Source of the DNA: Kovacikia minuta CCNUW1
Lineage (GTDB): Bacteria; Cyanobacteriota; Cyanobacteriia; Leptolyngbyales; Leptolyngbyaceae
Length of the DNA stretch: 64,000 nucleotides
Reading direction: 5' to 3'
NCBI RefSeq assembly: GCF_020091585.1
Contig: NZ_CP083583.1
Coordinates: 62,001-126,000 of the forward strand
Shown one piece after another: positions 1,009-26,285 of this stretch. The first letter of the stretch is position 1, and every line of letters starts with the position of its first letter. The notes below the pieces were generated by a model. That model made no database searches. It saw nothing but the letters and a program-made list of their open reading frames with translations, and had not been told where the DNA came from. The position numbers and the translations under genes are program-made.

Positions 1009-1076
1009 AGAAACCGGGTTTCTGAACGGAAAATCAGGGGTTTCAGGTTGAATCAATAGTGAGAAACCCGGTTTCT
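1009..1076. repeat. Two copies of a 15-bp palindromic repeat (AGAAACCSGGTTTCT)
   Basis: AGAAACCGGGTTTCT at 1009-1023 and AGAAACCCGGTTTCT at 1062-1076 are near-perfect palindromes separated by 38 bp. The second copy lies inside the 3' end of the pump gene and supplies part of its last residues (SETGFLTIDST). Related AACCCGTTTCTG text occurs near 20177, so this looks like a dispersed repeat rather than a local operator. Confidence 0.7.
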
Positions 1077-4000
1077 GATACAAGCGTTGGTTTGGGAAAC
1101 AGGTATCGACCAAACCGAGCATAAAAAGCAGGCAAAACAATCAGGGTCAGGGCAGTGGAAGTGACGAGACCGCCCAGAACGACGATCGCCAACGGTTGTA
1201 AAATTTCCTTGCCCGCTCCACCTGCAACCACCAAGGGGGCTAAGCCCAATGCCGACGTAAATGCGGTCATCAAAATTGCGTTGAGGCGTTCCATTGAGCC
1301 TTGGGTTAGCAAGTCTTCGAGGGGCATTCCCTGGGCGAATTTGGTGTTGTAGTTATCGACGAGTAGCAAACCGTTGCGGGTGGCGACACCAAACAAGGTG
1401 ACAAACCCCACAAGGGAGGCAACCGAAAGAATGCCTCCCGTGAGGGCAACAGCAATCACCCCTCCAACCAGCGCCAAAGGCAGATTAATCATGATCATTG
1501 CAGTGGAAGGAATGGACTTAACGGAGAGATACATGATGGCGGTGATCAGTACGCAGGCGATCGCGCTATACAGCAAAAGGCTTTGGGTCGATCTCTGCTC
1601 GGCTTCAAACTGGCCGCCATATTGAATAAAGTAACCTGGAGGGAATTGTACCTGCTGTTGCACCTTTGCCTGAATTTCGTTGACGACTGAGCGCACATCC
1701 CGTCCACTCACGTTGGCAGACACCACCAGCAACCGAGATGCATTTTCCCGACTAATGGTGTTGGGGCCTGTGGCATCCCGAATAGTAGCAACTTGTGCCA
1801 GGGGAATTTTCTGTCCATTGGGAGTGTCAATCAGCAAGTTACCGATTGTCTCCGGGCTACTGCGGGCGCTTGGCTCCAGCCACACGATCAAATCAAATGT
1901 CTGCTGTTGCTCCAGCACTTGAGCAACCACCCGTCCATTCAGAGCGGTTTGAATCATATTAGAAAGTTCGCCAATGGTTAAACCATAACGGCTGGCAGCG
2001 GTACGATCGAACCCAATCTGAATCTGGGGCACCGGAACTTGCGGTTCGGGTTGCAGATCAACCACACCGGGTACGGATTGCATTGCCATCGTCACTTCTT
2101 CACTTAAATGGCGCAAGGTGTTCAACTCAGAACCAAAGATTTTGACGGCGATCGCGCTTCTCACACCGGACAACACTTCATCCATTCGGTGGGAAATGAA
2201 GCCGCCAATGCTGGGAGCGACGCCGGGTAAACGGGCAAACTCCTGACGGAGTTTTTCGATGCTGCCTGGGCGATCATGCATGCCCGCAGTGCTCAGTTCC
2301 ACATCCAAATGGGCACCGTTGACACCCGCCGCATCTGCATCTCCCGGCACACGTCCAGAGCGAAGCTGTACGTGCTCAAACCGGGGGTCATTCTGAAGCG
2401 CAGCTTGCAGCGCAAATCCGACCTGGTTAGTGGACTCCAGCGAGACACCAGGATAAAGTGTAACGGCATTGACCAGCGATGTCTCCTGAAACTCGGGCAG
2501 AAAAATCCGTCCGAAGCTGGGCACAATGATCAGGGTTGCCAGCAGCATGGCGGCTGATGCCAGCAGCACGACCTTCGATCGTTTCATGGAAAAGGTTAGC
2601 CAGGGCAGGTAGAGCCGCTTGAAAAAACGTGCTACCCAGGGTTCGGTTTCTGGCAGGTGTCCGTGGGGTAGCAGGATGGCACAGAGGGCTGGGGTTACGG
2701 TTAAGGCGGTGAGGCTGGAGGCAACCACCGCTGCGATGTAACCCAACCCCATGGGAATGAAAATGCTGCCCTCTACTCCCTCTAAGGCAAATACTGGAGA
2801 GAACACCAGGATTGTAATTACCGTTGCCCCAAACACCGAATCTCGCACCTCTTTACAACCCTCGTACACCACTTCCAGTAACGGACGAGGGTGGGCAGAG
2901 TGCTTGTTTTCGCGCAGGTTGCGGTACACATTTTCAGCATCGACGATCGCATCATCCACGGCTGACCCGATCGCCACGGCTAAACCCCCCAGCGTCATGG
3001 TGTTGAGTCCTTGCCCAAGGAGATTTAGCATGGCCACACCGATCAGCAATGATAGGGGTAATGCCACCAGACAAATCACCAGATTGCGCCAGTTCATTAG
3101 AAATGGAATCAGAATCAGTGCAACAATAATGCTGCCTTCCAATAACGCCTCTCGCACATTTGCGATCGATGCGTCGATGTAGTCCTCTTGGCGAAAGGTC
3201 ACCGTTGCTTTGACATCTTTGGGAAGCCCTGCTTTGACCTCTGCCATCGCTGCTTCAATGGCACGAGTCACGGTTGGGGTATCCGCTTGAGGTTGTTTGT
3301 TGATCAGCAGGACAATTGCAGGCTGACCATCCAGACTGCCATCTCCACGTTTGATGGCGGCTCCAATCTGAACCTCAGCAACATCTGCTAAGCGCACGGG
3401 CTTGCCATCCTGGGCGGTAATGACCGATTGCTTCAGATCTTCGAGCGACTCAATTCGCCCCACTCCCCGAATCAGTCGTTCGCGATCGCGGGTAATCAAA
3501 AATCCACCGGGTGCATTCGCATTGGCTGCTTTGGCTGCTTCTGTTACCTGCTGTAAGGTGACATTGAATGCTTGCAACTTGGCGGGATGCACCAGCACTT
3601 GATACTGTCGAACGTCCCCACCGTAGGCAATAACCTGCGCCACCCCAGGAACCGCAAGTAAACGGTTCGTCACTTGCCAGTCGATCAGGCGACGCAGATC
3701 CATCAGGGAAGTGGGGGCGGAGGCGGGGTTCCCTTCTGCCTCTCTGCCCCCTGCCTGCTGCCTTCTCGACTGTAAATCCGATCATCATGACGGTACTGAT
3801 CGGTGAGGTGATGGGCGACAGTTGGGGCGTTTCAACGCCTTCCGGCAGTTTGTTCTGCGTTTGTTGTAACCGTTCAGTTACCAGTTGCCGGGCGCGATAG
3901 ATTTCGGTATCCCAATTGAAGATGACTTTGATAACGGACAATCCGGCAGCGGAGGACGATCGCACCGTCGTAATTCCTGGCGTACCATTGACGGCACTTT

Positions 4001-4208
4001 CGATCGGGAGTGTGACCAGGGACTCCACTTCTTCCGGTGCCAATCCAGGTGCTTCGGTTTGGATTTCGACCTGTGGCGGTGCAAAGCTTGGAAACACGTC
4101 CAAAGGCATCTGGCTGACCGTGCGGAAAGTCCATACGGTTAGAATTAGCGCTGCAAAAATAACCAACCAGCGGCGAGCGATCGCCCATTTGATGATTGAA
4201 TCGAGCAC
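1043..4208 (-). pseudogene. czcA: CzcA/CusA-family heavy-metal RND efflux pump, split by one +1 frameshift
   Basis: Inner-membrane proton/metal antiporter of a tripartite heavy-metal efflux system. The N-terminal part (4208 to about 3750) starts MLDSIIKWAIARRWLVIFAA and contains the first membrane helix and the porter motif PGLAPEEVESLVTLPIE. The rest, readable from 3703, carries the second porter region, the transmembrane acidic motif SAVDDAIVDAENVYRN (about residue 420 of the joined protein) and the C-terminal six-helix bundle. Removing one G from the G5 run (plus-strand CCCCC at 3747-3751) restores a single frame of 1054 residues, normal for the family. The shift sits in a GGCAGAR heptad-like stretch. 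The break may be a sequencing error or real decay. The C-terminus is built partly from a dispersed palindromic repeat. Substrate metal cannot be assigned. Confidence 0.88.
3730..3770 (-). repeat. GGCAGAR-type heptad repeat inside the efflux pump gene
   Basis: On the minus strand this stretch is degenerate copies of GGCAG(A/G/C)(A/G), the unit that forms arrays in the intergenic DNA at 8128-8223 and 19992-20045. Here it lies in coding sequence between the porter motif SPISTVMMIGFTVE and LMDLRRLIDW, and holds the G5 run where the frame changes. Confidence 0.65.
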
Positions 4209-8261: not shown

Positions 8262-9614
8262 TCACCAACCCGGAACCCAATTTGTGCCCGCTAGGGGCAG
8301 ACGTGCCATTGCGGCGGCTTCAACGGTTAGGGCGACGAGGTCTTCCCGTTCCAGGTGATGCACGTTTTGTTTGCCACAGGCACGGGCGATCGTCGTTAAT
8401 TCCATCGTCAACGTTTTGAGATAGTTTCTGAGATGACGGGCTCCAATTTCGGGTGTAAGTCGTTGTTCTAGAACAGCATCCTGGGTCGTAATCCCGACGG
8501 GACATTTTCCGGTATGGCAGTGGTGACAGTAACCGGGGGCGGTGCCGATCGCCGCATAATCTTCGATCGCGGAGTGATATTCTCCAGTTTGAAAATAGCG
8601 ATCGTGGTTGCAACCGAGGGCAATCAAAACGCCCTGCCCGATCGACACCGCATCCGCTCCCATCGCGATCGCCTTTGCCACATCGGCACCGGTACGAATG
8701 CCACCGGAGACGATCAATTGCACCTGTTCCTTCATGCCCATTTCTTCCAGCGCATCCACCGCCTGCCGCACCGCAGCCAGGGTCGGAATGCCGACATGCT
8801 CAATGAACACGGTTTGGGTGGCAGCGGTGCCTCCCTGCATCCCATCCACCACAATCACATCGGCACCCGCATGGACTGCCAATTTGACATCGTTGTAGGT
8901 GCGGGTCGCTCCCACCTTGACATAAATCGGCTTTTCCCAATCGGTCAGCTCCCGCAGCTCTTGAATTTTAATCGTCAGATCATCGGGGCCAGTCCAATCA
9001 GGGTGACGGCAGGCGGAGCGTTGGTCAATGCCTTCCGGCAAGGTTCGCATCTCGGCAACGCGAGGGTTGATCTTCTGTCCTAACAACATCCCTCCACCCC
9101 CCGGTTTTGCCCCCTGACCGACCACGATTTCGATCGCATCTGCTTTGCGGATATCATCAGGATTAAACCCGTAGCGGGATGGTAAACATTGATAGACCAG
9201 GGTTTTGGAGGACTGGCGTTCTTCCGGCGTCATGCCGCCATCGCCAGTGGTGGTGGTGGTGCCCATTTCGGTGGCAGCCCGACCGAGGGCTTCTTTGACG
9301 TTTGCCGATAGAGAGCCAAAACTCATGCCAGCGATCGTAATCGGAATCTCCAACTCGATCGGTTTTTTGGCATAACGAGTCCCCAGGATGGTTTTAGTCA
9401 CACACTTTTCCCGATAGCCTTCTAACGGATAGCGCGACATTGATGCCCCAAAAAATACCAGATCATCAAAGTGGGGCAATTTGCGTTTGGCACCCATGCC
9501 GCGAATTTCATACAACCCATGTGCCGCTGCATTCTGGATATAGTTGAGAATGGTGCGATCGTACCCGGCAGATGCTTCTAAAGAAAGGTGTCGGGAAAAA
9601 TCAGAGTGATTCAT
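8262..9614 (-). CDS. mgsC: FMN-dependent glutamate synthase-like subunit (N-methylglutamate synthase subunit C / GlxD)
   Basis: Stand-alone synthase domain of the glutamate synthase large subunit. 450 residues from ATG 9614 (MNHSDFSRHLSLEASAGYDR); an upstream extension to 9701 would overlap the neighbouring nuclease gene and is not conserved-looking. Key features: glutamate-synthase barrel segments IAGMSFGSLSANVKEALG, GQGAKPGGGGMLLGQK (FMN/substrate loop), VDGMQGGTAATQ, LIVSGGIRTGADVAKAIAMGADAVSIG, and the Cys cluster CHHCHTGKCPVGI expected to hold an iron-sulfur centre. In methylotrophs this protein with MgsA and MgsB makes N-methylglutamate from methylamine and glutamate. Here it is on the same strand as mgsA/mgsB but separated by an Mrr-type gene and a repeat array. 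A plain glutamate-synthase-like role is the alternative. Confidence 0.85.
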   Translation of the reverse strand: MNHSDFSRHLSLEASAGYDRTILNYIQNAAAHGLYEIRGMGAKRKLPHFDDLVFFGASMSRYPLEGYREKCVTKTILGTRYAKKPIELEIPITIAGMSFGSLSANVKEALGRAATEMGTTTTTGDGGMTPEERQSSKTLVYQCLPSRYGFNPDDIRKADAIEIVVGQGAKPGGGGMLLGQKINPRVAEMRTLPEGIDQRSACRHPDWTGPDDLTIKIQELRELTDWEKPIYVKVGATRTYNDVKLAVHAGADVIVVDGMQGGTAATQTVFIEHVGIPTLAAVRQAVDALEEMGMKEQVQLIVSGGIRTGADVAKAIAMGADAVSIGQGVLIALGCNHDRYFQTGEYHSAIEDYAAIGTAPGYCHHCHTGKCPVGITTQDAVLEQRLTPEIGARHLRNYLKTLTMELTTIARACGKQNVHHLEREDLVALTVEAAAMARLPLAGTNWVPGW

Positions 9615-9663
9615 ATTAATTAGTAGAAGTGTATTTTGAAGTTTGCTTGATTTGCTGCTCACG

Positions 9664-10542
9664 CTATGTTTGAAATTCCTGAAAAAAATGGAAATCCACA
9701 TCGAAAGTTTTTCGAGGAATTAACCCAAGCTCTAAATTCTCAAACATATCAAGAAGCTTTTCTCCATGAACCAGTTCAATTGGTGTTGCACCGTCTCGAA
9801 CTGCCTCCTTTTGAGCATCTGATGTAAATGTTCCAGTTGTCAGAATAATCCCTTTGTCCGCTCTTCCCATCATCGCTCCTCGAAAATCTCTTACTTGAGA
9901 AACCGATACTGCACCCACATATCGTTTGCATTGAAAAAGTACCTTAAAACTTACGAATGGATTAACTTGCAAAATTCCATGTCCGTCAATTCCACCGTCT
10001 CCAGAACGCCCTGTAACTGTAACTTGCTCAAATCCAGATTCTCTCAACAAACGTTGACACAAACGCTCAAATCCTTCTGGAGAAAGTGATGTCAGGATCT
10101 CAAGAAGTTTTTTGCGATACGAAGAGTCATCACTAACTGCGGTATCGTTAGGAGCAATACTTTCTCCAACTGGCTCAAGTTCTGAAGGTTCTTCTGAACT
10201 CTTATCACCCTCAAATTCAGCATGAACTTGTTTAAAGAGCGCGCGCGCTTCATCAAAAGATAAAGATTCAATAGTTCTACCTTTGTCACTTAAACTCCAA
10301 ACACCACGCTTTGATGAATCTACTAATCCAGCTTTGACAAGATAAAACCTAGCCCATGCAACTTGATTGTCAAAGCGTGAAGCCCCACCTTCTAGAAGTT
10401 CTGTTTGTTCTTGTTCTGATATATTTAAGCGCTGTGCAATAACATCTCTTACCTCAGAAGGGCGACCTGAACCACCTAATTCCTTAAGAGCTTCAATCAC
10501 TGGAGAGAAGAAACGAACAAATTTAGGTCCACTCATAAGCAA
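9664..10542 (-). CDS. Mrr-type restriction endonuclease
   Basis: 292-residue protein with the two-domain layout of Mrr type IV restriction enzymes. Residues 1-100 form the winged-helix Mrr N-terminal domain (FFSPVIEALKELGGSGRPSEVRDVIAQ ... ARFYLVKAGLVDSSKRGVWSLSDKG). An acidic linker (100-140) follows, then the PD-(D/E)XK catalytic domain: FERLCQRLLRESGFE (Glu159), GRSGDGGIDG (Asp186) and QCKRY (Gln204, Lys206). All expected catalytic residues are present, so it should cleave DNA, in this family usually methylated DNA. The next Met (10536) is an equally good start. It interrupts the mgs gene set: mgsB ends 555 bp upstream and mgsC starts 49 bp downstream, which suggests a later insertion. Confidence 0.88.
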   Translation of the reverse strand: MLMSGPKFVRFFSPVIEALKELGGSGRPSEVRDVIAQRLNISEQEQTELLEGGASRFDNQVAWARFYLVKAGLVDSSKRGVWSLSDKGRTIESLSFDEARALFKQVHAEFEGDKSSEEPSELEPVGESIAPNDTAVSDDSSYRKKLLEILTSLSPEGFERLCQRLLRESGFEQVTVTGRSGDGGIDGHGILQVNPFVSFKVLFQCKRYVGAVSVSQVRDFRGAMMGRADKGIILTTGTFTSDAQKEAVRDGATPIELVHGEKLLDMFENLELGLIPRKTFDVDFHFFQEFQT

Positions 10543-10613
10543 TAGTAGTTATATACAGCATGTTAGGTGAAACTGTAACGCACCATTTCTGGGTTGTAAA
10601 AGTCAACCCCCCA

Positions 10614-10646
10614 GATCCCCGACTTTTCCCAGAAAAGTGGGGGATC
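10614..10646. repeat. Hairpin GATCCCCGACTTTT / AAAAGTGGGGGATC
   Basis: A 14-bp inverted repeat (one mismatch) with a 5-nt loop, at 10614-10627 and 10633-10646, preceded by TGTAACGCACC. Related text (CCGACTTTTTCCAAAAACGTTGGAGATC) occurs at 31620, so it is a dispersed element; it could also act as a terminator for mgsB. Confidence 0.6.
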
Positions 10647-10768
10647 TTTGTCTCACAAATGATTTGAGAGGTTGTTTGGTGAAATCCACTCTCGAAAATC
10701 TTTAGTTCGCTCCGCTGGTGCTGCTCCCAATGCGATCGCTAACGCCCCCATCTTTGTTGCACCACTTG

Positions 10769-11055
10769 CTATCCTCTTGTACCGTGTAACAATCCTTCTG
10801 TACTGGGTTACATTTGTATGATCATAGAGAACATTCAAATTGTATCGAACGCAAATGCTGTTGTCCTCTATGCAAATACTTTTGTATCGCGTGACAATCC
10901 TTCTGTGTCACAGGACAATCCTTCTGTATCAAGTTGCATTCGGATGATCATAGGTAACATTCAAATTGTGGCGGGTGCAAATGCTGTTGTATCTACCGTA
11001 ATTGCTTCTGTGTCGGGTGACATTCTTTCTGTATCGGATGCATTTCTGTAAGAGT
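10769..11055. repeat. Degenerate 21-bp tandem repeat array, 13 units in register
   Basis: Thirteen consecutive 21-nt units start at 10769, 10790, 10811 and so on to 11021, with a partial fourteenth, and no indels. The best unit is CAATCCTTCTGTATCAAGTTG (10916). A higher-order period of six units (126 nt) is visible: the three units from 10811 and the three from 10937 match closely (GATCATAG, CATTCAAATTGT, AAATGCTGTTGT). Because 21 is divisible by 3, the plus strand stays open from before 10770 to 11051. From ATG 10818 it would encode 77 residues of heptapeptide repeats (NPSVSQD, NPSVSSC, IASVSGD). The minus frame has stops (TGA) in some units. No ribosome-binding site is evident, so protein coding is doubtful. 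Confidence 0.8.
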
Positions 11056-11097
11056 CCGTGCAAATGTTATTGTTCTCAGGCAGGTTGGGCACGTGCC

Positions 11098-11787
11098 CTA
11101 ATACTCCTGATTGGCATCCGCATTCCAATGATACAGTTGCTTTGCCGAAGCAATGCGTTTGAACTCGTGGGGAGCGTGGGAGAAACCTGCTTTATCGAGC
11201 AGTTCTTTTACTACCTCATAATCCGCTTCAGACATGGGTTCAATCTGGGCATCGGCACCGAGGGATTTGATGCTACCGCGCACATAAAGAACGGCTTCGT
11301 AAAGGGAATCTCCCAATGCATCTCCGGCATTGCCACAAATGACCATGCGTCCGGCTTGCGCCATGAATGCGGAGAAACTACCGACATTGCCACCCACCAC
11401 AATGTCTGCACCTTTGAGGGAAATACCGCAGCGCAGGCTGGTGTCTCCCTCAATGATTAGCAATCCACCGTGGGCAGAAGCCCCCGCTGAAACGGAAGCA
11501 AATCCCTTAACATGAACGCGACCGGACATCATGTTTTCGGCAACACCGGGACCGACGTTTCCATGAATGGTGACATTTGCCAGTTTGTTCATCCCGGCTG
11601 CGTAGTAACCGGCATGACCGAGGATATTGACTTCAATCGGGGCATCCAACCCAACCGCAATGTTGTGTGCGCCATCTGGATTGAGCAGATCGATCGCCTG
11701 TCCACCGTTTTGACTGACGTTGTGATGCAGAAAGTGATTTACTTCCCGCAGCGGTGTTTGCGTTAAATCAAAGGTCAAACGGTCCAT
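11098..11787 (-). CDS. mgsB: GXGXG-domain protein (N-methylglutamate synthase subunit B / GlxC)
   Basis: 229 residues matching the C-terminal beta-helix (GXGXG) domain of glutamate synthase as a separate polypeptide. The middle is a series of beta-helix turns rich in Gly and Asn: VNILGHAGYYAAGM, VTIHGNVGPGVAENMMSGRVHVKG, IIEGDTSLRCGISLKGADIVVGGNVG, MVICGNAGDALGDSLYEAVLYVRG. In glutamate synthase this domain couples the amidotransferase and synthase sites. It overlaps the mgsA stop by 13 nt on the same strand, so the two are translationally coupled. Overlap and order (mgsA, mgsB) match the cluster known from methylamine-using proteobacteria. Confidence 0.85.
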   Translation of the reverse strand: MDRLTFDLTQTPLREVNHFLHHNVSQNGGQAIDLLNPDGAHNIAVGLDAPIEVNILGHAGYYAAGMNKLANVTIHGNVGPGVAENMMSGRVHVKGFASVSAGASAHGGLLIIEGDTSLRCGISLKGADIVVGGNVGSFSAFMAQAGRMVICGNAGDALGDSLYEAVLYVRGSIKSLGADAQIEPMSEADYEVVKELLDKAGFSHAPHEFKRIASAKQLYHWNADANQEY

Positions 11788-12671
11788 ACGTACATCTCCT
11801 CAGGTGCGGGTTCGTAGATGTGGGCAGTGTTAACATCCGGCAGATGGGCGAGGGAGCGAAACTCCGAGGCGATCGCCACGTAATCTTCCGTTTCGGCAAC
11901 GACAGCAGGTTTGCAGGCAAAGGCATCGCGCACCAGTGCGAGTTTGTCCTGGGTTCCAATCAGCAAGGTATAGAATCCATCCAACTCTTCAAATCCTTGC
12001 TGCAAGGCTGCTTCCAAAGTGTCCCCTGATTGCATGCGCCATTCCAAAAAACGGCAGGCTGCCTCGGTGTCGTTGTCGGTTTCAAAATGAATTCCGCGTG
12101 GTTCCAGTTTGCGTCGAATGGAGTAGGGGTTGGACAGGGAGCCGTTGTGAACCAGGCAAAAGTCTTCGCCTGCGGTAAAGGGGTGGGCATGGGCGGGCGT
12201 CACCGCGGATTCCGTTGCCATGCGGGTGTGCGCCACCACATGAGTACCTTTCAATGTTTTGAAGTTGTAACGGTTGGCAATGTCAGGGGGTGAACCGGCA
12301 TCTTTATAAAGGTCGATCGCCCGTCCCGTGGACAAAACATGCAGTTGCAAATCCTGCTCTTTTAGCCACTGCTTCATCCTTTCGGGGGCAAGGTCAGTGA
12401 TTAAAACTGCCTGATTGCCGTGGGTTTGCAGATCAACCGTTGTATTGAACTGTGCTTGAAACGCGTCTAACAGTTCTGACCAATGAAAGTCTTTGCCACT
12501 AGAATAAAGGCTGTATTTCCGATGAGATTCTGCCACGGTTTCAGTAAACACGGCAAGCCCCGCAGAATCCGGCCCTCGCTCACTCATCCCAATCAACATG
12601 GGTACCATCAGTTCGCCCAGGGAGTTTCGTAGTTCAGGTTTTTTGATCAGTAGTCCGATGATTCCACACAT
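11775..12671 (-). CDS. mgsA: Class II glutamine amidotransferase (N-methylglutamate synthase subunit A / GlxB)
   Basis: 298-residue Ntn-type amidotransferase. The start MCGIIGLLI places the nucleophilic Cys at position 2, exposed when the initiator Met is removed. Other family marks: MSERGPDSAGLAVF, THVVAHTRMATESAVTPAHAHPF, FCLVHNGSLSNPYSIRRKL, FETDNDTEAACRFL and LVRDAFACKPAVVAETEDYVAIASEFRSLAHL. It would release ammonia or act on a glutamine-like substrate for MgsC. ATG 12671 is the only sensible start. It follows mgdD after a 105-bp heptad-rich spacer and overlaps mgsB. The trio with MgsB and MgsC is what separates an N-methylglutamate locus from a plain sarcosine oxidase operon. Confidence 0.87.
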   Translation of the reverse strand: MCGIIGLLIKKPELRNSLGELMVPMLIGMSERGPDSAGLAVFTETVAESHRKYSLYSSGKDFHWSELLDAFQAQFNTTVDLQTHGNQAVLITDLAPERMKQWLKEQDLQLHVLSTGRAIDLYKDAGSPPDIANRYNFKTLKGTHVVAHTRMATESAVTPAHAHPFTAGEDFCLVHNGSLSNPYSIRRKLEPRGIHFETDNDTEAACRFLEWRMQSGDTLEAALQQGFEELDGFYTLLIGTQDKLALVRDAFACKPAVVAETEDYVAIASEFRSLAHLPDVNTAHIYEPAPEEMYVWTV

Positions 12672-12706
12672 GATTTCGTTTTAAGTTTTGAGTTTTAAGT
12701 TGATAG

Positions 12707-12785
12707 AAGGCAGAAGGCAGGAGGCAGGAGGCAGGAGCTAGGATGCAGGAGCTTGAATTAATTCAAAATTCAAAATTCAAAATTC
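12707..12785. repeat. Heptad repeats GGCAGGA and ATTCAAA between mgdD and mgsA
   Basis: The 105-bp spacer holds tandem GGCAGGA/GGCAGAA heptads (about 12707-12745) and ATTCAAA heptads (about 12759-12782). The ATTCAAA array overlaps the mgdD stop codon, so the last residues of MgdD (ENDEF) are encoded by repeat sequence. Confidence 0.7.
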
Positions 12786-13427
12786 ATCATTCTCAATTCC
12801 CTTGCCACCCAGTTCTTCGACAATTTCTACCAGGGTTCGCCAAAAATACATGCCAAAGGTGCCATCGCACCAAATTCTGTAAAAAGGGAAGTTATCGCGT
12901 TCGCTGGGAATGATGGTGACTGCAACCCCAATCATAGAGGTGAGAATAACGGGACGTTCTGACAAAGAAAGAGCGCGAAAGTTGAAGCTACAGGTTTGCC
13001 GCATCAGGTCATTGATCGCTTCACCGTAGAGGGCGATCGCGAGATCCTGGCGTAACACTGGATACACCCTGGCAGGGGGCTGTTGACAGGCTTCAGCCAG
13101 TTGACGGGCAATGTTAGAGTGCAGGTTGTCTTCAATTAAAAACTCACTCATTCCTAAACGAGCGACAATGCCTCCCTGGGAAATGGGATGCCAGGTATTT
13201 GGACGATCGGGAATGGGAATATTCTGGTCCCTCAACCAGTCTGCTGCCCCCTTGCCCTTAACGCCAAAGCGGGTCAGGAATGACAAATCGGAAATCCGCA
13301 AACGGGGAGCGATCTCACCTTCATTCAAGGTATGAACCCATACGGGCATCCCGTTGATTTCCCGCCAGGAGCCAGGCATCGTTGGTAGCGCATCATGAAC
13401 CGGGCTGAGACGGAGCGGCGTGGTCAT
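12777..13427 (-). CDS. mgdD: Sarcosine oxidase gamma-like subunit (N-methylglutamate dehydrogenase subunit D)
   Basis: 216 residues with the SoxG fold, related to the aminomethyltransferase (GcvT) family but without a free-standing catalytic site. Visible markers: RLRISDLSFLTRFGVKGKGAADWLRDQNIPIP, ISQGGIVARLGMSEFLIED, and RQTCSFNFRALSLSERPVILTSMIGVAVTIIP near the C-terminus, ending FPFYRIWCDGTFGMYFWRTLVEIVEELGG. In heterotetrameric sarcosine oxidases this subunit helps bind FMN at the alpha/beta interface. The ATG overlaps the mgdC stop by 4 nt (ATGA), showing operon organisation. The C-terminal tail comes from an ATTCAAA repeat. Confidence 0.83.
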   Translation of the reverse strand: MTTPLRLSPVHDALPTMPGSWREINGMPVWVHTLNEGEIAPRLRISDLSFLTRFGVKGKGAADWLRDQNIPIPDRPNTWHPISQGGIVARLGMSEFLIEDNLHSNIARQLAEACQQPPARVYPVLRQDLAIALYGEAINDLMRQTCSFNFRALSLSERPVILTSMIGVAVTIIPSERDNFPFYRIWCDGTFGMYFWRTLVEIVEELGGKGIENDEF

Positions 13428-16400
13428 ACGGGCACCTCCTGACGTTGTGCAGCTTCTTTTTGGCGCAGGTTGTTGAGGTCATAAAACGGCGTTGCTGTAA
13501 CGGTTGCGCTGATTAATGCCCCATCCGTTAATCGGATTGAAAAGTGCATGCCGTTGTCTGCTAATTCTGGTTTGACATAGGCTAAACCGATGAATCGTTT
13601 CAGCACTGGGCTAAACCCAATACTGGTTACGCGACCTGCGATCTGATCAGAGTCAATGATCAGATGGCACTCCTGCGGCGGGGTTCCGCGAAAGTTTTGA
13701 GCCAGCATAAAACCAACCAGTTTTTGTTTAATCGGGCGCTTAGCAACCGTTTGCAGACTGCGCTGACCGATAAAAAACGGCTTGTCGAGTTTGGCTGCCC
13801 ACTCTAGATTGGCTTCGAAGGGAGTCGTCAATCCGTCCGTATCCTGACCCACAATCAGATGCCCCTTTTCAAGCCGGAGCAGCCGTTGTGCTTCCACCCC
13901 AAAGGGACAAATGCCATACTCCGCCCCTGCCTCCAGCAGGGCATCCCAGAGTGCCGGGGCGGATTCTGCTGCAACGTGAATTTCGTATCCCCACTCCCCG
14001 ACAAAACCAACCCGCATCAAAATCGCCGGAATTCCGGCAACCGTGGCTTCACGCACGGCAAGGTAGGGAAATGCCGTTCCCGACAGATCACAATCAGTCA
14101 ATTGGGTCAGCACATGACGGGCATTGGGTCCGGCAAGATTGATAGCCGATCGTGCTCCTGTCAAGTTGACCAGCCCACAATCCAACTGCCACATCGTATT
14201 CAAACGAGACAATTCACGATAAATTGCCGCTGCCCCAGAAGTGGTGGTGGTGAAATAGAAATGGTCGGCTCCCAATCGTGCAATCACCCCATCATCCACA
14301 ATCACCCCTGCCTCATCCAGCATCAACGCATAGCGGGACATGCCCACCTTGAGATTGGTGTAGCGTCCGGTGTAAACCCGCTCCAGAAATTCGGCAGCAT
14401 CCGAACCGCGTAACTCCAATTTGCCCAACGTTCCCACATCAATGATGCCAACGCGGGTGCGAACGGCTTCTGCTTCCCGCTGAATACACTGCGATCGATC
14501 TTTTCCAGATTGAGCATAATACGCGGGTCGTCGCCACTGACCTGCCAGCAGAAACGTTGCGCCAAGTGCTGTATGGCGACTGTGCAAAGGCGTCTGCCGT
14601 TCAGGCATAAATCCCCGTCCGGCTAGATGCGATAGGGGCACAGGGTGGAAAAATGGGCGGGCAGTTGTCGTTCCCACCTGACCCGGAGATTTGCCTGTAA
14701 TTCGTGCCAGAATCCGCAATGCATTCATGTTGGAATGTTTACCCTGACTCGGACCCATGCCAACGGTTGTAAATCTTTTGAGTAGCTCAATGTTGTCAAA
14801 TCCCTCCTGAGCCGCGTTGTAAAAGTCCTTTAATTGCAGGTCTTCATCAAAGTCTACAAAGTTCTTACCGGCGGGATGGGCGATCAAGGGAAAGGGATGG
14901 GAAGGGGGTGTGGGGTGTGGGGTGTGGGGTGTGGGATGTGGGGCAAGGGAATTTTGAGTTAATTCTAGCTCCTGGCTCCTGGCTCCTGGCTCCTGGCTCC
15001 TGGCTCCTGGCTCCTGGCTCCTGGCTCCTGGCTCCTGGCTCCTGCTCCCCTGCCTTCCTCCATCCCCCATCCCCAGATATTGAATCGCTTCGCTCCCCGC
15101 CCGTTCACCATCGGTGATTTTCTGGTCGAATTCGTACACGCCATTTACCCGACCACAGGCAAAGATGCCCGCTGGCAGAATTTCGGGAACAAATTGTTGC
15201 AAGGAGGGATCAAACCGCATTTGGGTTCCGGCTTGATAGAGCAGGTTGGCAGCGGGTGCCCAACCCACGCTCATGATGATGCCATCACAGGCGATCGCTT
15301 GTTTATCCTCAGTCTGCGGTTGACCATCAGCATCGATCGGACAAATCACAGCAGTAGAAACCCGATCGACGGCTGGATTGGATTTCGCTTCATAGATGCA
15401 ATGGCTGTAGTAAATGGGAATTCCGATCGCTTGAATGGTTTTTGTTAGATCATTTTCTATATTATTTGGACGTAGATCGACAATTGCCATGACGGTGATG
15501 CCATGCGTTGCTAAATCAATGGCAGCTCGATAGCCATCCTGATTGGCAACCAGGACAACGGCTCGTTCCATTGGCTGAACCGCATAGCGGTAGATCAAGC
15601 GCTGGGCAGCCGATGCCAGCATTACACCAGGCAGATCATTATTGTGAAATACGGCAGGTTGTTCGTAGGCACCGGTTGCCATAATGACCGCTTTCGCCCG
15701 CATTTTGGTAAGACACTGCTTGTCCACTAAAGGAATCCAGTGATCGGCGTAATACCCTGCTGCTTGCGTGGCTAAATAAACTCGAATTTGGGGATGGTTT
15801 TGAACCGTTTGAAGGAGGGCGATCGTGGTTTCCGCCTGCCATGTTTCACCACCTCGCTGATAGCATCCCGCTCCCCCTGCTTGAGCATTTTCATCCACAA
15901 TTACCACATCTGCACCCGCATCGGCTGCGGTTAGGGCTGCCGAAAGCCCTGATATGCCTGCACCAACAACCAGCACATCACAGAAGTCATAGCATTTGGG
16001 TGTGCGAATGTGGGGTGTGGAAGTATCCACCTTTCCTAAGCCGCTGATGGTGCGAATCAGTCGTTCCCAAAATGGAAATCGGTTTTTGTCGTGAAATGCT
16101 TTGTAGTAGAAGCCAACGGGTAAAAAGGGTGAAAAAAAGTTGAGCACACTGGCGCGATCGCCCATCAATCCACCCTTCGTATTCACCGCTGTCAGGGACA
16201 TGCCCGCTTCTAAGGGGGTGATATCTGCACGAATGTTGAGCTGCTGTCCATCCTGTATCAAAGCATTGACATCGTGATTGGCAAGACTTAAAACCCCGCG
16301 CGGACGATGGTATTTAAAACTACGACCCATTACCCGTTGTCCAGCGGCAACCAGTGCAGTGGTAATCGTATCTCCGGCGTAGCCCCAAAAGGAATTGCCC

Positions 16401-16474
16401 TCAAAGGTAAAGGGGAGAATTTGGCTGCGATCGATCCACTCACCTGCGATCGGGGGCAATCGTCTAGCACTCAT
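13424..16474 (-). CDS. mgdC: Sarcosine oxidase alpha-like subunit (N-methylglutamate dehydrogenase subunit C), with a heptad-repeat insertion
   Basis: 1016-residue large subunit. Order of domains: ferredoxin-like domain at 15-95 with GRSFKYHRPRGVLSLANHDVN but no 2Fe-2S cysteines, as in sarcosine oxidase alpha; FAD/NAD-binding domain at about 165-470 with VVGAGISGLSAALTAADAGADVVIVDE and the second dinucleotide segment GIIMSVGWAP; C-terminal GcvT-like folate/formaldehyde domain from about 600 to the end (VGTLGKLELRGSDAAEFLERVYTG, VGFVGEWGYEIH). Residues about 477-524 are a foreign low-complexity insert: SQEPGAR repeats, then HPTP repeats, encoded by heptanucleotide arrays. The family's usual length is about 970, which fits an added segment of this size. 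It overlaps mgdB and mgdD. Predicted role: oxidise N-methylglutamate with the beta subunit and hand the one-carbon unit to folate or release formaldehyde. Confidence 0.87.
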   Translation of the reverse strand: MSARRLPPIAGEWIDRSQILPFTFEGNSFWGYAGDTITTALVAAGQRVMGRSFKYHRPRGVLSLANHDVNALIQDGQQLNIRADITPLEAGMSLTAVNTKGGLMGDRASVLNFFSPFLPVGFYYKAFHDKNRFPFWERLIRTISGLGKVDTSTPHIRTPKCYDFCDVLVVGAGISGLSAALTAADAGADVVIVDENAQAGGAGCYQRGGETWQAETTIALLQTVQNHPQIRVYLATQAAGYYADHWIPLVDKQCLTKMRAKAVIMATGAYEQPAVFHNNDLPGVMLASAAQRLIYRYAVQPMERAVVLVANQDGYRAAIDLATHGITVMAIVDLRPNNIENDLTKTIQAIGIPIYYSHCIYEAKSNPAVDRVSTAVICPIDADGQPQTEDKQAIACDGIIMSVGWAPAANLLYQAGTQMRFDPSLQQFVPEILPAGIFACGRVNGVYEFDQKITDGERAGSEAIQYLGMGDGGRQGSRSQEPGARSQEPGARSQEPGARSQELELTQNSLAPHPTPHTPHPTPPSHPFPLIAHPAGKNFVDFDEDLQLKDFYNAAQEGFDNIELLKRFTTVGMGPSQGKHSNMNALRILARITGKSPGQVGTTTARPFFHPVPLSHLAGRGFMPERQTPLHSRHTALGATFLLAGQWRRPAYYAQSGKDRSQCIQREAEAVRTRVGIIDVGTLGKLELRGSDAAEFLERVYTGRYTNLKVGMSRYALMLDEAGVIVDDGVIARLGADHFYFTTTTSGAAAIYRELSRLNTMWQLDCGLVNLTGARSAINLAGPNARHVLTQLTDCDLSGTAFPYLAVREATVAGIPAILMRVGFVGEWGYEIHVAAESAPALWDALLEAGAEYGICPFGVEAQRLLRLEKGHLIVGQDTDGLTTPFEANLEWAAKLDKPFFIGQRSLQTVAKRPIKQKLVGFMLAQNFRGTPPQECHLIIDSDQIAGRVTSIGFSPVLKRFIGLAYVKPELADNGMHFSIRLTDGALISATVTATPFYDLNNLRQKEAAQRQEVPV
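14905..15044. repeat. Two heptanucleotide arrays inside the mgdC coding sequence
   Basis: GGGGTGT is repeated five times at 14905-14939 (last unit GGGATGT). GCTCCTG is repeated eleven times exactly at 14968-15044 (77 bp). Translated on the minus strand they give the HPTP-type and SQEPGAR-type peptides in the alpha subunit. Since 7 is not a multiple of 3, each unit gained or lost shifts the frame; the present total keeps the gene open. Confidence 0.92.
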
Positions 16475-16733
16475 GCAACCCTCTCTTCACCGTACAAATC
16501 GGGCGTAAAATTTCGTCCGTTTGAGTATTTCGTTCCACCACAAACCAGGTATTGCTGGGACTATGGCACCACCATTCCTGCTTAATCCCCGCTGCTCCAT
16601 TGCGGTTGAATACATAATCTGCCCAGGTGGCATCGTCAGCGGTTTGGGGATCGGGCATCAGCCGCACCTCACCCCCATAAATAAATTCAGAAATCGGTCT
16701 TGCTCCATTTACCGGGCAAATCATGATTTTCAT
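16464..16733 (-). CDS. mgdB: Sarcosine oxidase delta-like subunit (N-methylglutamate dehydrogenase subunit B)
   Basis: 89-residue SoxD-type subunit: MKIMICPVNGARPISEFIYGGEVRLMPDP, then WADYVFNRNGAAGIKQEWWCHSPSNTWFVVERNTQTDEI. In sarcosine oxidases the delta subunit binds zinc through a CPxC pair and a downstream His/Cys. Here the first Cys (6) is kept, but the second position is Asn (CPVN), so the zinc site is incomplete or uses other ligands. The EWWCHSPSNTWF block is intact. The 3' end overlaps the mgdC start by 11 nt. Its presence makes the enzyme heterotetrameric rather than a monomeric sarcosine oxidase. Confidence 0.85.
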   Translation of the reverse strand: MKIMICPVNGARPISEFIYGGEVRLMPDPQTADDATWADYVFNRNGAAGIKQEWWCHSPSNTWFVVERNTQTDEILRPICTVKRGLHEC

Positions 16734-16737
16734 AACG

Positions 16738-17067
16738 CTAAAAAGTTCCTAACAGGGGTAGTACTTTCTGCTTGAGGAGTTCCACCAGAACTGGCTCCAT
16801 ATAACCGTAGTGATCAGGAATATCCAGACAAATGACACGCTTATTTTTGAGCAGCGGTTGAAACTTGTTTGTAAGTTTGCTGCGATGGGATGGTTCCATT
16901 ACAAAGATGATGTCTGCCCATTGAATTGACTCGTTGGATAAAGGCACTTCTGCTTCCCGATCGACCCCCGCTGATTCCACTTCTAGCCCCTCATATTCAG
17001 AGAAAATCGCCTCGGCTGTTGGGCTACGTAATCGATTCTTACCGCAAACAAATAGCAATTTTTTCAT
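16738..17067 (-). CDS. Low-molecular-weight protein tyrosine phosphatase-like protein
   Basis: 109 residues with the P-loop at the N-terminus: LLFVCGKNRLRSPTAE contains CX5R (Cys8, Arg14) followed by Ser, the active-site signature of LMW-PTPs. The general acid region is DIPDHYGYMEP near residue 82. At 109 residues it is shorter than classical LMW-PTPs (about 150) but matches a compact bacterial subfamily. It lies 9 nt after mgdA and 4 nt before mgdB, so it would be co-transcribed although it has no known role in methylamine use. It may be a passenger. Substrate unknown; an arsenate-reductase-like role is possible but there is no extra support. Confidence 0.8.
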   Translation of the reverse strand: MKKLLFVCGKNRLRSPTAEAIFSEYEGLEVESAGVDREAEVPLSNESIQWADIIFVMEPSHRSKLTNKFQPLLKNKRVICLDIPDHYGYMEPVLVELLKQKVLPLLGTF

Positions 17068-17076
17068 AGATAGTCA

Positions 17077-18319
17077 TCAATGACCAACAGATGCCGCGCC
17101 CTTTTCGCCAACTAAGGCATGGTTCGCAAACCGATCGAGGGAAAAATCTTGAATTAATTCGTGGGGGCGATCGCACGCCACCGTGTATGCCATGGTTTTG
17201 CCGCAGACTGGCGTTGCTTTAAAGCCCCAGGTGCCCCATCCCGCATCCAAATAGAAGCCATCAATCTCGGTCTTACCCATAATGGGGGCAAAGTCGGGCG
17301 TCATATCTGCCATCCCCGCCCATTGGCGCACAATCTTGACATGGGACAGAAATGGAAACAGTTCCAGCATGTGGGCGGCAAGTCCTTCCACAAAATCCAG
17401 GGTCGATCGGGTGGAATGCAACTCGTAGGGATCGAGCGATGCCCCCATCACCAGTTCTCCGCGGGCAGTTTGGCTGACGTACACATGCAAGCTTCCAGAT
17501 ACAATAATTGGATCAAGCCAGGGGTTCATGGGTTCGCTGACCATTGCTTGCAGCGGGTGAATGTAGAGGGGCGATCGCAGTCCGAGCATCGCCAAAATTC
17601 GGGGAGTAAATCCGGCAACGGCACACAATACACGCGGAGTCGCAATTCTGCCACGGGTGGTTTGGACGCCTGTGACTTTGCCAGATTCGACCGTAATTCC
17701 CAGCACTTCCGTTTGCTGATGAATTTCCACACCGCGCCGATCGGCACCGCGACCATAGCCCCACGCCACCGCATCATGGCGGGCAATACTGCCAGGTGCA
17801 TGATATAGCGCCGCCAAAACTGGTGCCTTACCACCACAATCCAGATCCATGAACGGACAGGCTTTCTGAATCGCATTTCGATCGACCAGTTCGCTATTAA
17901 TGCCGTAGTGCTTATTCACCTCTGCCCGCCAACGCATTGTCCGTACTGCTGCATCGGTATGCGCCAGGGTGAAATGGCCGCGGGTGGAATAAAACAAATT
18001 CAGATCAAAATCCTGGGATAAATCCTGCCAGAGCCGCACCGATTCATCGTAAAACTTAACCCCTTCTGGTGTGAGATAGTTCGATCGAATAATGGTCGTA
18101 TTCCGTCCCCGTGTGGCCCCCGCCAATGTAGCCTTTTTCTAATACCGCCACGTTTGTCATGCCGTGATCCTTTGCCAGGTAGTACGCGGCTGCCAATCCG
18201 TGCCCACCGCCACCAATAATCACCGCATCGTAACTGGACTGGAGGCGATCGGGTTGGCGGAACATGCGGGGTTCCGGGTGCTGCTTGGAAAAAGCGAATT
18301 TCAGCAGGCGTAGGGGCAT
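17077..18319 (-). pseudogene. mgdA: Sarcosine oxidase beta-like subunit (N-methylglutamate dehydrogenase subunit A), one +1 frameshift
   Basis: FAD-dependent catalytic subunit (DAO family). The 5' part, from ATG 18319 ([18 protein letters not shown]), has the Rossmann motif [42 protein letters not shown]. The frame then changes, and the 3' part resumes with [23 protein letters not shown] and continues to the stop at 17077, including RQWAGMADMTPDFAPIMG and the FAD-closing DAGWGTWGFKATPVCGKTMA. A plus-strand CCCC run at 18107-18110 has one base too many; with three, the joined protein reads HTGRNTT and is 413 residues, the normal length. Sequencing error is the simplest explanation, since every other subunit is intact. 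It heads the operon, facing the XRE-cupin regulator. Confidence 0.87.
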
Positions 18320-18325
18320 GGGGGG

Positions 18326-18400
18326 GAGTTATGAGTTATGAGTTATGAGTTATGAGTTATGAGTTATGAGTTGTGAGTTATGAGTTATGAGTTATGAGTT
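18326..18400. repeat. GAGTTAT heptad array upstream of the mgdA start
   Basis: About ten tandem GAGTTAT units (a few with one change, e.g. GAGTTGT) run from 18326 to 18400, starting 7 bp upstream of the mgdA ATG. The array therefore occupies the region expected for its ribosome-binding site and leader; no clear Shine-Dalgarno is left. Confidence 0.88.
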
Positions 18401-18454
18401 TTGAATTTTGAGGTGCAGAGGGGGGACACTGGATTGGAGGAACACAATAGATTC

Positions 18455-18533
18455 TTATCAGGAAACTTAATTGAATATAGTGCATCAATAATTCACACCT
18501 GTCAATAAAGTTTCGTATTGTTATGCCTGATAA
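18455..18533. promoter_or_regulatory. Possible operator arms in the mgdA/regulator divergent region
   Basis: TTATCAGG at 18455-18462 and CCTGATAA at 18526-18533 form separated inverted arms in the DNA shared by the divergent operon and regulator. The right arm overlaps the proposed regulator start. Only 8 bp each, so chance is not excluded. Confidence 0.3.
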
Positions 18534-19204
18534 TGAAAGGAGTCTGGAGACTACCTCTCTTTTCCTTCTATGCCCACACCCCGCCCCACACCCCACACCC
18601 CACACCCCACACCCCACCTGATTCCCTGGAACGTTACCTCGGCAACACCATTCGAGAACTGCGGTTGAAACATGGCTTGACGATCGCAGAAGTTGCAGAA
18701 CAGGTTGGGATCTCCCGTGGCATGTGGTCAAAGATTGAGAACGCGCAGACGGCTACCAGTTTGGATACCCTGGCGCGGATTGCGAATGCACTGGGGGTTT
18801 CGCTTTCAATCCTATTTCGCAACTACAACATGCCGCAGGGAGGTGCCCAACTGGTCAAAAATGGGACTGGAATGGAGGTGGTGAGGCGAGGAACCAAATG
18901 TGGGCATACCTACCAATTGCTGGCCTACGATCAGGGACCAACCAAACGATTTGAACCATTCTTGATCACGATGGATGATGCTTCTGAAGTATTTCCGACT
19001 TTTGAGCATCCCGGTATTGAATTTATCTATATGTTGGAGGGGCAAATAGAGTACCGCCACGGGCAACACACCTACTTGCTGTCACCCGGCGATGCCCTCA
19101 GCTTTCGGGGTGAAATTCCCCACGGTCCCGAAAAGCTCGTACAGTTACCGATTCGCTTCTTAGCGATTATCTACTATTCCGCTTCTGCGGATTCGGAGAT
19201 ATGA
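18533..19204 (+). CDS. XRE-family transcriptional regulator with C-terminal cupin sensor
   Basis: Helix-turn-helix domain: LERYLGNTIRELRLKHGLTIAEVAEQVGISRGMWSKIENAQTATSLDTLARIANALGVSLSILF. It is followed by a cupin domain (FEHPGIEFIYMLEGQIEYRHGQHTYLLSPGDALSFRGEIPHGPEKL), the architecture of small-ligand-responsive repressors such as those beside amine and polyamine genes. It is divergent from mgdA and is the natural regulator of that operon. The start is uncertain: ATG 18533 is in frame. A better-looking N-terminus, MPDNERSLETTSLFL from ATG 18523, is one base out of frame with the HTH and would join it if one C were removed from the CCCCACA heptad array at 18573-18618, which encodes the His/Pro/Thr-rich linker. 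Confidence 0.85.
   Translation: MKGVWRLPLFSFYAHTPPHTPHPTPHTPPDSLERYLGNTIRELRLKHGLTIAEVAEQVGISRGMWSKIENAQTATSLDTLARIANALGVSLSILFRNYNMPQGGAQLVKNGTGMEVVRRGTKCGHTYQLLAYDQGPTKRFEPFLITMDDASEVFPTFEHPGIEFIYMLEGQIEYRHGQHTYLLSPGDALSFRGEIPHGPEKLVQLPIRFLAIIYYSASADSEI
18573..18618. repeat. CCCCACA heptad array in the regulator N-terminus
   Basis: CCCCACA is repeated at 18584, 18591, 18598 and 18605, with flanking variants at 18573-18583 and 18612-18618. It encodes a Pro/Thr/His-rich stretch just before the helix-turn-helix domain and is the reverse-complement type of the GGGGTGT array in mgdC. Confidence 0.85.
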
Positions 19205-24787: not shown

Positions 24788-26285
24788 CTAGGCTGAGGGC
24801 GGTAGCTTTTCAGCAAATAAATTTTTCAGGTCTTCCCTGGAAAAGGTTTGCAACATTTCTTGTAATTTGGCAATGGCTTCACTCCGCTGAACTGGAGGTA
24901 ATACTTTCCCAAGTTCCTGGAGGATATCATCAACAATACTTTGAGAAGCAAAGAAGACAAGCGCAGTGCCAAGGATTCCCCTACCCAAGGAGTTACCTAA
25001 ATTCTGAATGGGATTATAAATTCCTGGACATTGGGGTTTATCTTCTATGGAAGCGGCTGAGAACGCGAGGGCACTGGCATAGGACAAAAATAATCCTGAA
25101 CCGATGCCCATAATAATTAACCCTGGCATCAGATCAAGCGAGGTAACCTGGAGATGGATGCGACTGTAAAGCACTCCAATGCCTACTGCAACCAAACCAA
25201 TACCACTACAAACGATCGTTCTGGGTGCAACGCGGTTACCTAAAATCAGATACTTAATTACAGCAACTAACACAATTGCCATGGTCAGGTTGTAAGGAAT
25301 AATTGTCAGTGCTGTTTGGAAGGGATTGAGCGTTAATGCAACTGGCACAAACTGAAACAAATTGAATTGTACGCCTGTGACAATTAGCGTATGCAGCATG
25401 GCAGTGAGAATCCCTAAAACAAAGCTGCGTTCCCGTAGTAACCCAACTTGCAGTAAAGAAGCCTCTGATCGGTTTGCCTGTCGTCGTTGCCAGAGGCCAA
25501 AGAATCCTAAAATAATTACTCCTACGGCAACTAACGTTGGCACAATCGAAATTGCAAAAGGGGGAATCACTACACCTGCGATCGAAAATACCTGTTTTGG
25601 TTCCCACCAGCCAAATTCCCCAGCCAAACTAATGCCAGCCAAGATAGAGGTTAGCCCCAGAACATGAAAGTAAGCCCCCCACCCAGTCGATCGGTTGCTG
25701 AACGGAAAAGACCTGAGTCGGAAGCGATCGCCGGAAGCGCATCACAAACAGCAGAACGCAGAGTGACGGTAAAAATGCCCAACGCCAGCCAAAATTGGAG
25801 GCAAGATAGCCCCCCATCAAAGATCCTGAGATTCCTCCCAGGACGGAAGCTAAAATCATTGCCAGGGTAGCCTGTTCAGTTGATTCGTCGTCATAAAGCA
25901 TATCGGCGAGCGCCCAGGGTGTACTGATTAAGGGAGTGGCAGCCAACCCTGTTAACAACGAAAAACTAATGGCCAGTGCGCCGATCGTCGGACTCAGAGA
26001 GGTCAGCCCAATCCCAAGCCCATAGAGAATTAAGCCGATCTGAAAGACGCGCGTTCGACCGTAAAAGCGACACAGATTCTCCGTTGTGGGTGCAAAGGAA
26101 GCGGTCACCAGAGAAAAAATAACCAGGATGCCCTGGATGTAACCCACACTTGAATTGAGGTCAAGTACAATTTTGGGCATGATGGCAGGCATAACACTGA
26201 CATTGTAGGCAACCATGTAGAGGGTGAGCGTAATTGCCCAAAAGCTTTGCTGCTTAAATCGACTCTTCCGCGTTGGACTCATCAT
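24788..26285 (-). pseudogene. MFS transporter, EmrB/QacA-like (DHA2 type), one +1 frameshift
   Basis: The 5' part from ATG 26285 (MMSPTRKSRFKQQSFWAITLTLYMVAYNVSVMPAIMPKIVLDLNSS) holds the first membrane helices, with a motif-A-like loop (TTENLCRFYGRTRVFQIGLILYGLGIGLTSLSP). The 3' part continues GAYFHVLGLTSILAGISLAGEFGWWEP to the stop at 24788 and contains the remaining helices. The break falls at a plus-strand C6 run (25675-25680); with five C the reading is DWVGAYFHVLG and the protein is 498 residues, typical for 14-helix DHA2 carriers. This suggests a proton-driven exporter of unknown substrate. The final segment (LQEMLQTFSREDLKNLFAEKLPPSA) is cytoplasmic. Confidence 0.82.

Follow-up and report, generated by a model that had tools for sequence, protein, structure and literature searches.

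A putative N-methylglutamate pathway gene cluster, with gmaS at another locus, in the cyanobacterium Kovacikia minuta CCNUW1

Analysis of a 64-kb stretch of the Kovacikia minuta CCNUW1 genome (the window: 64,000 nucleotides, G000:C2:62001-126000, from an assembly of 8.56 Mb in three contigs) revealed a cluster of seven genes, mgdABCD and mgsABC, which very probably encodes the N-methylglutamate pathway for monomethylamine and which cyanobacteria apparently acquired from a proteobacterium. We give this reading a probability of about 0.86. An earlier note, made from the letters of the stretch, had proposed N-methylglutamate pathway genes here, and four kinds of evidence bear this out: the phylogeny of the alpha subunit, its scores against the SoxA model, a CPxNG motif in the delta subunit, and the gene order. 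The phycocyanin genes cpcB (45702-46223) and cpcA (46414-46905) lie in the same window, so the host is an oxygenic phototroph.

Identity of the cluster

For comparison, a scan of a genome collection confirmed 434 loci, of which the best 80 were kept, 13 labelled cyanobacteria and 67 others, mostly Betaproteobacteria. SoxA proteins were labelled catabolic-type when they passed the TIGR01372 cut-off (1164 bits), a label that does not come from known function. The MgdC of the window stayed under this cut-off, with 828 bits among the window proteins and 826 bits in the genome search. Over 11 genomes, the model gave 793-856 bits to 11 Mgd proteins (including that of the window) and 1350-1496 bits to the five proteins above the cut-off. 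These five came from four genomes that hold both kinds, and there the two are plainly separate by score.

SoxA rows shorter than 600 amino acids and ten duplicates were excluded from the phylogenetic analysis. The resulting tree held 106 alpha subunits. In it, all 32 MgdC sequences from cyanobacteria formed one group (Shimodaira-Hasegawa-like approximate likelihood ratio test [SH-aLRT] 99) inside an otherwise mostly proteobacterial Mgd clade, from which the five catabolic-type SoxA were separated with an SH-aLRT of 100. The cluster was apparently acquired by cyanobacteria from a proteobacterium.

The motif CPxNG was found in MgdB of 32 of the 34 cyanobacterial loci and 59 of the 66 other loci, the rest having no motif match, while four of five catabolic-type SoxD had CPxCG and one had no match. 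The delta subunit of the window reads CPVNG and is thus without the CxxC, the second cysteine of which is a zinc ligand. In the beta subunit, the histidine aligned to position 173 of 2gag_B (counted by hand), which we take to be the residue bearing flavin mononucleotide (FMN), is kept both in the window mgdA open reading frame (ORF) and in locus L035 of the cyanobacterial genome G308.

The gene order points the same way. Among the 67 non-cyanobacterial loci, 55 had a readable mgsA, and all 55 contained gmaS, the gene of gamma-glutamylmethylamide synthetase (GmaS), between the mgd and mgs genes; Methyloversatilis universalis EHg5 is among them, and its locus and that of Methylovorus menthalis show this order. 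With dozens of loci arranged alike, a chance arrangement is excluded. Compared with the mgdABCD-gmaS-mgsABC cluster of M. universalis, that of the window has the same genes, the same order and the same divergent XRE-cupin gene. It differs in its phototrophic host, in lacking the cluster gmaS while another GmaS type is encoded on another contig, in two inserted foreign genes, and in an mgdA that is frame-broken in the assembly. Between G308 and M. universalis EHg5, identity is 77% for MgdA, 60% for MgdC and 83% for MgsC, and the G308 MgsC is 85% identical to that of the window. MgdC thus falls in the Mgd clade and not with the catabolic-type sarcosine oxidases, and MgsC is close to that of the genetically studied species M. 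universalis; neither of the two contrary groupings that the earlier note had considered was borne out.

A heterotetrameric sarcosine oxidase that serves to break down choline or glycine betaine, lying beside an unrelated glutamate-synthase-like operon, is a very improbable identity, and we rejected it: its four subunit families and domains (PDB 2gag, 1vrq), with the folate-binding GcvT half, are identical in kind to those found here, but the model scores, the clade of MgdC apart from the over-cut-off SoxA, CPxNG in place of CPxCG and the constant linkage with mgsABC and gmaS in the 55 non-cyanobacterial loci with a readable mgsA all contradict it.

The missing gmaS

No gmaS was found in the window, and the earlier note had left it either that MgsABC is used directly or that gmaS lies elsewhere. 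The genome search resolved this for the second: a Rhodovulum-type gmaS unlinked to the cluster was found at C1:2098708-2100033 (L037:8709-10037). The genome is therefore predicted to encode a GmaS outside the cluster. The protein scored 521 bits against GmaS of Rhodovulum sp. 12E13 (RhGmaS, 7cql), 379 bits against the Methylovorus-type enzyme (9qur) and at most 265 bits against glutamine synthetases. It was identical to RhGmaS at 20 of the 20 positions compared, as named in the available part of PMC7948447; 18 of these are binding or catalytic, and two distinguish GmaS from glutamine synthetase. Asp177, Glu186, Arg312 and the methylamine-pocket residues are present, and the Asp50-type residue is absent. 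Within a 28-row group of the unlinked type, the catalytic and methylamine-pocket positions were all kept, with variation at position 48 in five rows and at position 191 in four. In the glutamine synthetase tree, from which rows shorter than 400 amino acids and near-copies were excluded, the unlinked GmaS fell in a clade sister to RhGmaS and further cyanobacterial proteins. It thus differs from RhGmaS in its clade, and its gene stands apart from the cluster on C1. Cyanobacterial GmaS-like proteins as such are not new, because the alignment in Figure 10 of PMC7948447, in the part available, includes a Cyanophyceae GmaS.

Most cyanobacterial relatives carry a cluster gmaS like that of 9qur (724 bits for L035). 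A gmaS of this Methylovorus type was found between mgdD and mgsA in 20 cyanobacterial clusters, 19 from the class sample and that of G308; the cluster gmaS of G400 was broken by stops and that of G594 was in two pieces. Two genomes with fragmentary assemblies, G582 and G578, had the usual type on another contig. The 9qur type was not found in the window genome, where the best matches were 43-46% identical. In eight genomes, including that of the window, the cluster was otherwise readable and gmaS was missing.

The unlinked type, for which we required a match with 65% identity or more, was found in 58 genomes. It was present in all eight genomes without the usual gmaS and in none of the 22 that have it (Fisher p 1.7e-07, with kinship ignored). 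The 22 comprise the 19 class-sample clusters, G582, G578 and G308, the last coming from the phylum sample and separately checked for the unlinked type. On the MgdC tree, loss of the cluster gmaS took about five changes (bootstrap range 4-6); this tree omits G582, G578 and G594, whose MgdC is short, and holds L045 and L093, which have gmaS and whose genomes were not checked for the unlinked type.

Another gene, glutamine-synthetase-like and located at C1:478900 (L002/L036), was the first strong match to 9qur (443 bits) and was tried as the missing gmaS. It was rejected, as it lies near an arginase-family gene and its group lacks the GmaS residues (Q175S, N188D and H237N in 14 of 14 rows). The L036 region (G000:C1:470000-489000) forms an operon-like set containing, besides this gene, the arginase-family gene (Pfam) and, as judged by eye, HypA-/HypB-like, ABC transporter and creatininase-like genes. 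The set resembles guanidine hydrolase loci of cyanobacteria.

Beside the unlinked-type gmaS, an ammonium-transporter-family gene was seen in seven of 30 short loci (L236, L237, L238, L239, L241, L244 and L249); for one of the seven, Pfam confirmed the family. Some loci also have genes for Fe-alcohol and aldehyde dehydrogenases near this gmaS.

Distribution and a second mgsABC system

SoxD was found in 34 of 388 sampled Cyanobacteriia genomes and in 23 of 160 genera; an earlier whole-phylum sample had given 3 of 386. The system of the window was present in 32 of the 34, and the other two (G411 and G475) had a divergent SoxDA system, 36-37% identical to MgdC. Among the carriers with names are Tildeniella nuda, Stenomitos rutilans, Phormidium tenue FACHB-886, Chlorogloea sp. 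CCALA 695 and Vasconcelosia minhoensis, and some carriers are metagenome assemblies. The cluster gmaS is present in Chlorogloea sp. CCALA 695 and absent from P. tenue FACHB-886 and V. minhoensis LEGE 07310.

The MgsC search was positive in 41 of the 388 genomes. In 11 of these the sole MgsC is a divergent one (68-71% identical), and each of the 11 has the unlinked GmaS type, as against 39 of the 345 genomes with neither mgs system. In the 11 loci (L258-L268, e.g. L258:1458-8511), mgsA, mgsB and mgsC stand together, accompanied by a gene of one GntR-type family in seven, by the unlinked gmaS in three and by a single-subunit flavin adenine dinucleotide (FAD) amine oxidoreductase gene (L258:1458-2666, for example) in three; both family names rest on single examples. 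The oxidoreductase was found in five of the 11 genomes when the stretches around gmaS were counted too. Genes like soxD and soxA were found in two of the 11, in one case directly behind gmaS, and nine had no heterotetramer by the SoxD test. This co-occurrence supports the view that the unlinked GmaS serves MgsABC.

It is possible, and we put it forward tentatively, that methylamine assimilation is a widespread and unnoticed nitrogen trait of oxygenic phototrophs which was assembled at least twice in cyanobacteria. One route would be the transfer of the whole proteobacterial cluster (32 of 388 genomes), whose gmaS was repeatedly replaced by the unlinked GmaS. The other would be the second system (11 of 388), in which a divergent mgsABC is combined with this unlinked type of GmaS and, in many cases, with a regulator of the GntR type. 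There the single-subunit FAD amine oxidoreductase would take the place of the heterotetramer.

The divergent soxD-soxA pair (36-37% to MgdC) was located at L222:7919-13209 and L219:4450-8885. At L222 the two genes follow in a row behind an unlinked-type gmaS, and then comes a small GcvT-like gene at the place of soxG, with no soxB alongside.

Contrary evidence and the state of the genes

Several observations weigh against the proposed pathway or its reconstruction. The alpha-subunit tree was made by a quick method; 24 of its 103 inner branches were unresolved, and one SoxA row drew a long-branch warning. Three genomes (G605, G602 and G586), kept out of the 22-versus-8 count, have the cluster or part of it and neither GmaS type; G605 is visibly decayed, with broken mgdC and mgsA, and G602 and G586 are fragmentary. 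The unlinked GmaS type also occurs in the 39 genomes without mgs, and must therefore have other uses or act alone there. An exact match to the NtcA-type site GTAN8TAC was not found in the promoter region of the window, and was found in one of 31 cyanobacterial regions scanned. In the assembly as it stands mgdA is frame-broken, and the change N69H adjoins the break, at a position where the 29 other sequences all agree. At positions invariant in the relatives compared, MgdA had 3 changes in 230, N69H being one of them (window 6th of 30 sequences), and MgsC 3 in 294 (4th of 25).

The frame break, N69H, the two inserted genes and an expansion of repeats would all fit a pathway that is decaying in this strain, with mgdA a true pseudogene and the intergenic inserts as signs of loss, and genuine decay was seen in G605. 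We consider this unlikely here. The start of MgdA (to GGGHTG) lies in ORF 18056-18319 and the remainder in ORF 17077-18126, with the break near 18107. Of 48 comparison loci, 43 (nine of them duplicates) read unbroken through the break motif; the remaining five gave no motif match, and in two of these a soxB of this kind is absent. The same sort of split is clear in two other window genes, those of an RND pump (positions 1-144 and 151-1019 of PF00873) and of DUF2252 (1-267 and 255-392), and is probable in the genes of a P-type ATPase and of an MFS transporter, for each of which one half was recognised. On C1, recO (L037:14150-15188) also appears cut short. Because other window genes are split in this manner, the mgdA break is most likely an assembly error, that is, an indel. 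Runs of G/C surround all five window breaks, as long-read indels would give; the runs were examined at the breaks only, without a control for their general frequency. The other subunits showed no marked relaxation at invariant positions, with changes at 1 of 289 in MgdC (24th of 29 sequences), 0 of 127 in MgsA and 1 of 104 in MgsB. Judged from these residues, there is little to suggest decay in the proteins of the window.

The split or seemingly split window genes were seen at 1043-4208, 24788-26285, 26537-27926 and 32298-34803. In G605, the decaying cluster copy (L220:180-8132) has mgdC and mgsA in pieces, and mgsC and gmaS were not found in it.

Proposed pathway and its meaning

Gene content, gene order, phylogeny, conserved residues and the presence and co-occurrence of the unlinked gmaS were the observations from which we infer substrate, reaction order, regulation and function in vivo. 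The unlinked GmaS would convert methylamine, glutamate and ATP into gamma-glutamylmethylamide. MgsABC, a split glutamate synthase, would then transfer the methylamino group to 2-oxoglutarate and yield N-methylglutamate and glutamate. MgdABCD would oxidise N-methylglutamate to glutamate; in the GcvT half of MgdC, tetrahydrofolate would take over the one-carbon unit and become methylene-tetrahydrofolate. Methylamine use of this kind would supply a living cell with nitrogen, in the form of glutamate, and with one-carbon units for its biosynthetic needs. The chemistry is that described for proteobacteria; the available parts of PMC6237917 and PMC5023235 treat both the exact role of GmaS there and the electron donor of MgsABC as unsettled. 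In M. universalis FAM5, methylamine use was lost on mutation of mgsC and of mgdD, and methylamine induced the genes of the pathway together with a putative regulator (PMC5023235, available part); the genetics thus concern strain FAM5 and our locus comparison strain EHg5.

Another alternative, which we regard as unlikely, is a direct route in which MgsABC forms N-methylglutamate out of methylamine and 2-oxoglutarate and the unlinked GmaS is uninvolved. A phototroph would need nitrogen only, and the accessible text of PMC6237917 reports, citing Gruffaz et al. 2014, that in M. extorquens DM4 the synthetase is essential for methylamine as a carbon source but not as a nitrogen source, and also that P. 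putida given only mgsABC formed some N-methylglutamate. However, the exact complementarity of the two gmaS types among readable clusters, eight against 22, and the presence of the unlinked GmaS in all 11 genomes that have the second mgsABC form a pairing that would not be expected were GmaS idle. Because M. extorquens DM4 reportedly does not need the enzyme to use methylamine as a nitrogen source, the retention of one GmaS type in the cyanobacterial genomes is informative. The proposed route includes GmaS, and the gmaS replacements offer a natural experiment on whether MgsABC needs it.

The XRE-cupin protein probably controls the operon. A shared XRE operator was sought; the most frequent words were of the HIP1-like GCGATCGC kind, besides a few of greater length, and we claim no motif.

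Methylamine is commonly used in cyanobacteria as a non-nutritive ammonium analogue. We found no description of the N-methylglutamate pathway in cyanobacteria in a literature search covering mainly titles and abstracts, parts of PMC texts and few subscription papers. In its available part, the distribution survey PMC5023228 covers methylotrophic Proteobacteria. Our results suggest that some phototrophs may feed on methylamine nitrogen. If the carriers use methylamine, its nitrogen would pass straight to primary producers and not via heterotrophs, and its methyl carbon would enter their one-carbon pool. The gene gmaS serves as a marker for methylamine users (PMC7948447, available part). Since cyanobacterial gmaS comprises distinct types, pathway-linked and unlinked, marker surveys can misread phototrophs.

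Organization of the cluster

On the minus strand, from 18319 to 8262, the cluster reads mgdA, a 109-residue phosphatase-like ORF, mgdB, mgdC, mgdD, mgsA, mgsB, a Mrr-type gene and mgsC (Table 1). ORFs and family profiles agree with the earlier description of the families, of the order beta-delta-alpha-gamma followed by the amidotransferase, GXGXG and FMN domains on one strand, and of the divergent XRE-cupin gene. The set had also been called complete; all seven genes are indeed there, but mgdA is not one open frame. The overlapping stops and starts hold for mgdB/mgdC (11 bases), mgdC/mgdD (4) and mgsA/mgsB (13). They do not hold for mgdA/mgdB, which have the LMWPc-type ORF in between, for mgdD/mgsA, or for mgsB/mgsC, spaced by about 1.4 kb that hold the Mrr-type ORF. 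The true start of mgsC is probably nearer 9612, and that of the XRE-cupin gene, judged from alignment, probably nearer 18617. The NCBIfam profile search gave no match for the 109-residue ORF.

Table 1. Features of the cluster and its divergent neighbour, in window positions.
Feature	Position	Strand	Evidence and remarks
mgdA (soxB-like; N-methylglutamate dehydrogenase beta subunit)	17077..18319	-	TIGR01373 378 bits; relatives intact; frame broken near 18107
109-residue ORF, N-terminal part like low-molecular-weight phosphotyrosine phosphatase	16738..17067	-	PF01451 3e-07; insertion between mgdA and mgdB
mgdB (soxD-like, delta subunit)	16464..16733	-	PF04267 2.8e-28; CPxNG replaces CPxCG
mgdC (soxA-like, alpha subunit, folate-binding GcvT half)	13424..16474	-	TIGR01372 828 bits; alignment; tree
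Heptamer repeats within mgdC	14905..15048	-	encode most of ~40 extra residues
mgdD (soxG-like, gamma subunit)	12777..13427	-	TIGR01375 weak, 6e-05; 57% to L035 homologue, same position
mgdD-mgsA gap, 105 bases with heptamer repeats only	12672..12776	-	usual gmaS place in relatives
mgsA (class II amidotransferase, Cys2)	11775..12671	-	domain profile and comparison with relatives
mgsB (GXGXG beta-helix domain)	11098..11787	-	PF01493; 75% to L035 MgsB
Mrr-type restriction endonuclease gene, mgsB/mgsC spacer	9664..10542	-	PF04471, PF14338
mgsC (FMN glutamate-synthase domain; CxxCxxxxC group read by eye)	8262..9701	-	PF01645 2e-96; 84-85% to relatives
XRE-cupin regulator, divergent	18518..19204	+	PF01381, PF07883; 80% to L035 homologue

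The extra residues of MgdC were counted against two aligned relatives. Heptamer repeat arrays also lie at gene joints (12708-12786 and 18326-18412), and the array inside mgdC is translated in frame. Other cyanobacterial clusters have genes in the corresponding intervals: a GNAT-like gene (by eye) occupies the mgsB-mgsC interval of G308 (L035), and an unrelated small ORF lies between mgdA and mgdB in G605 (L220).

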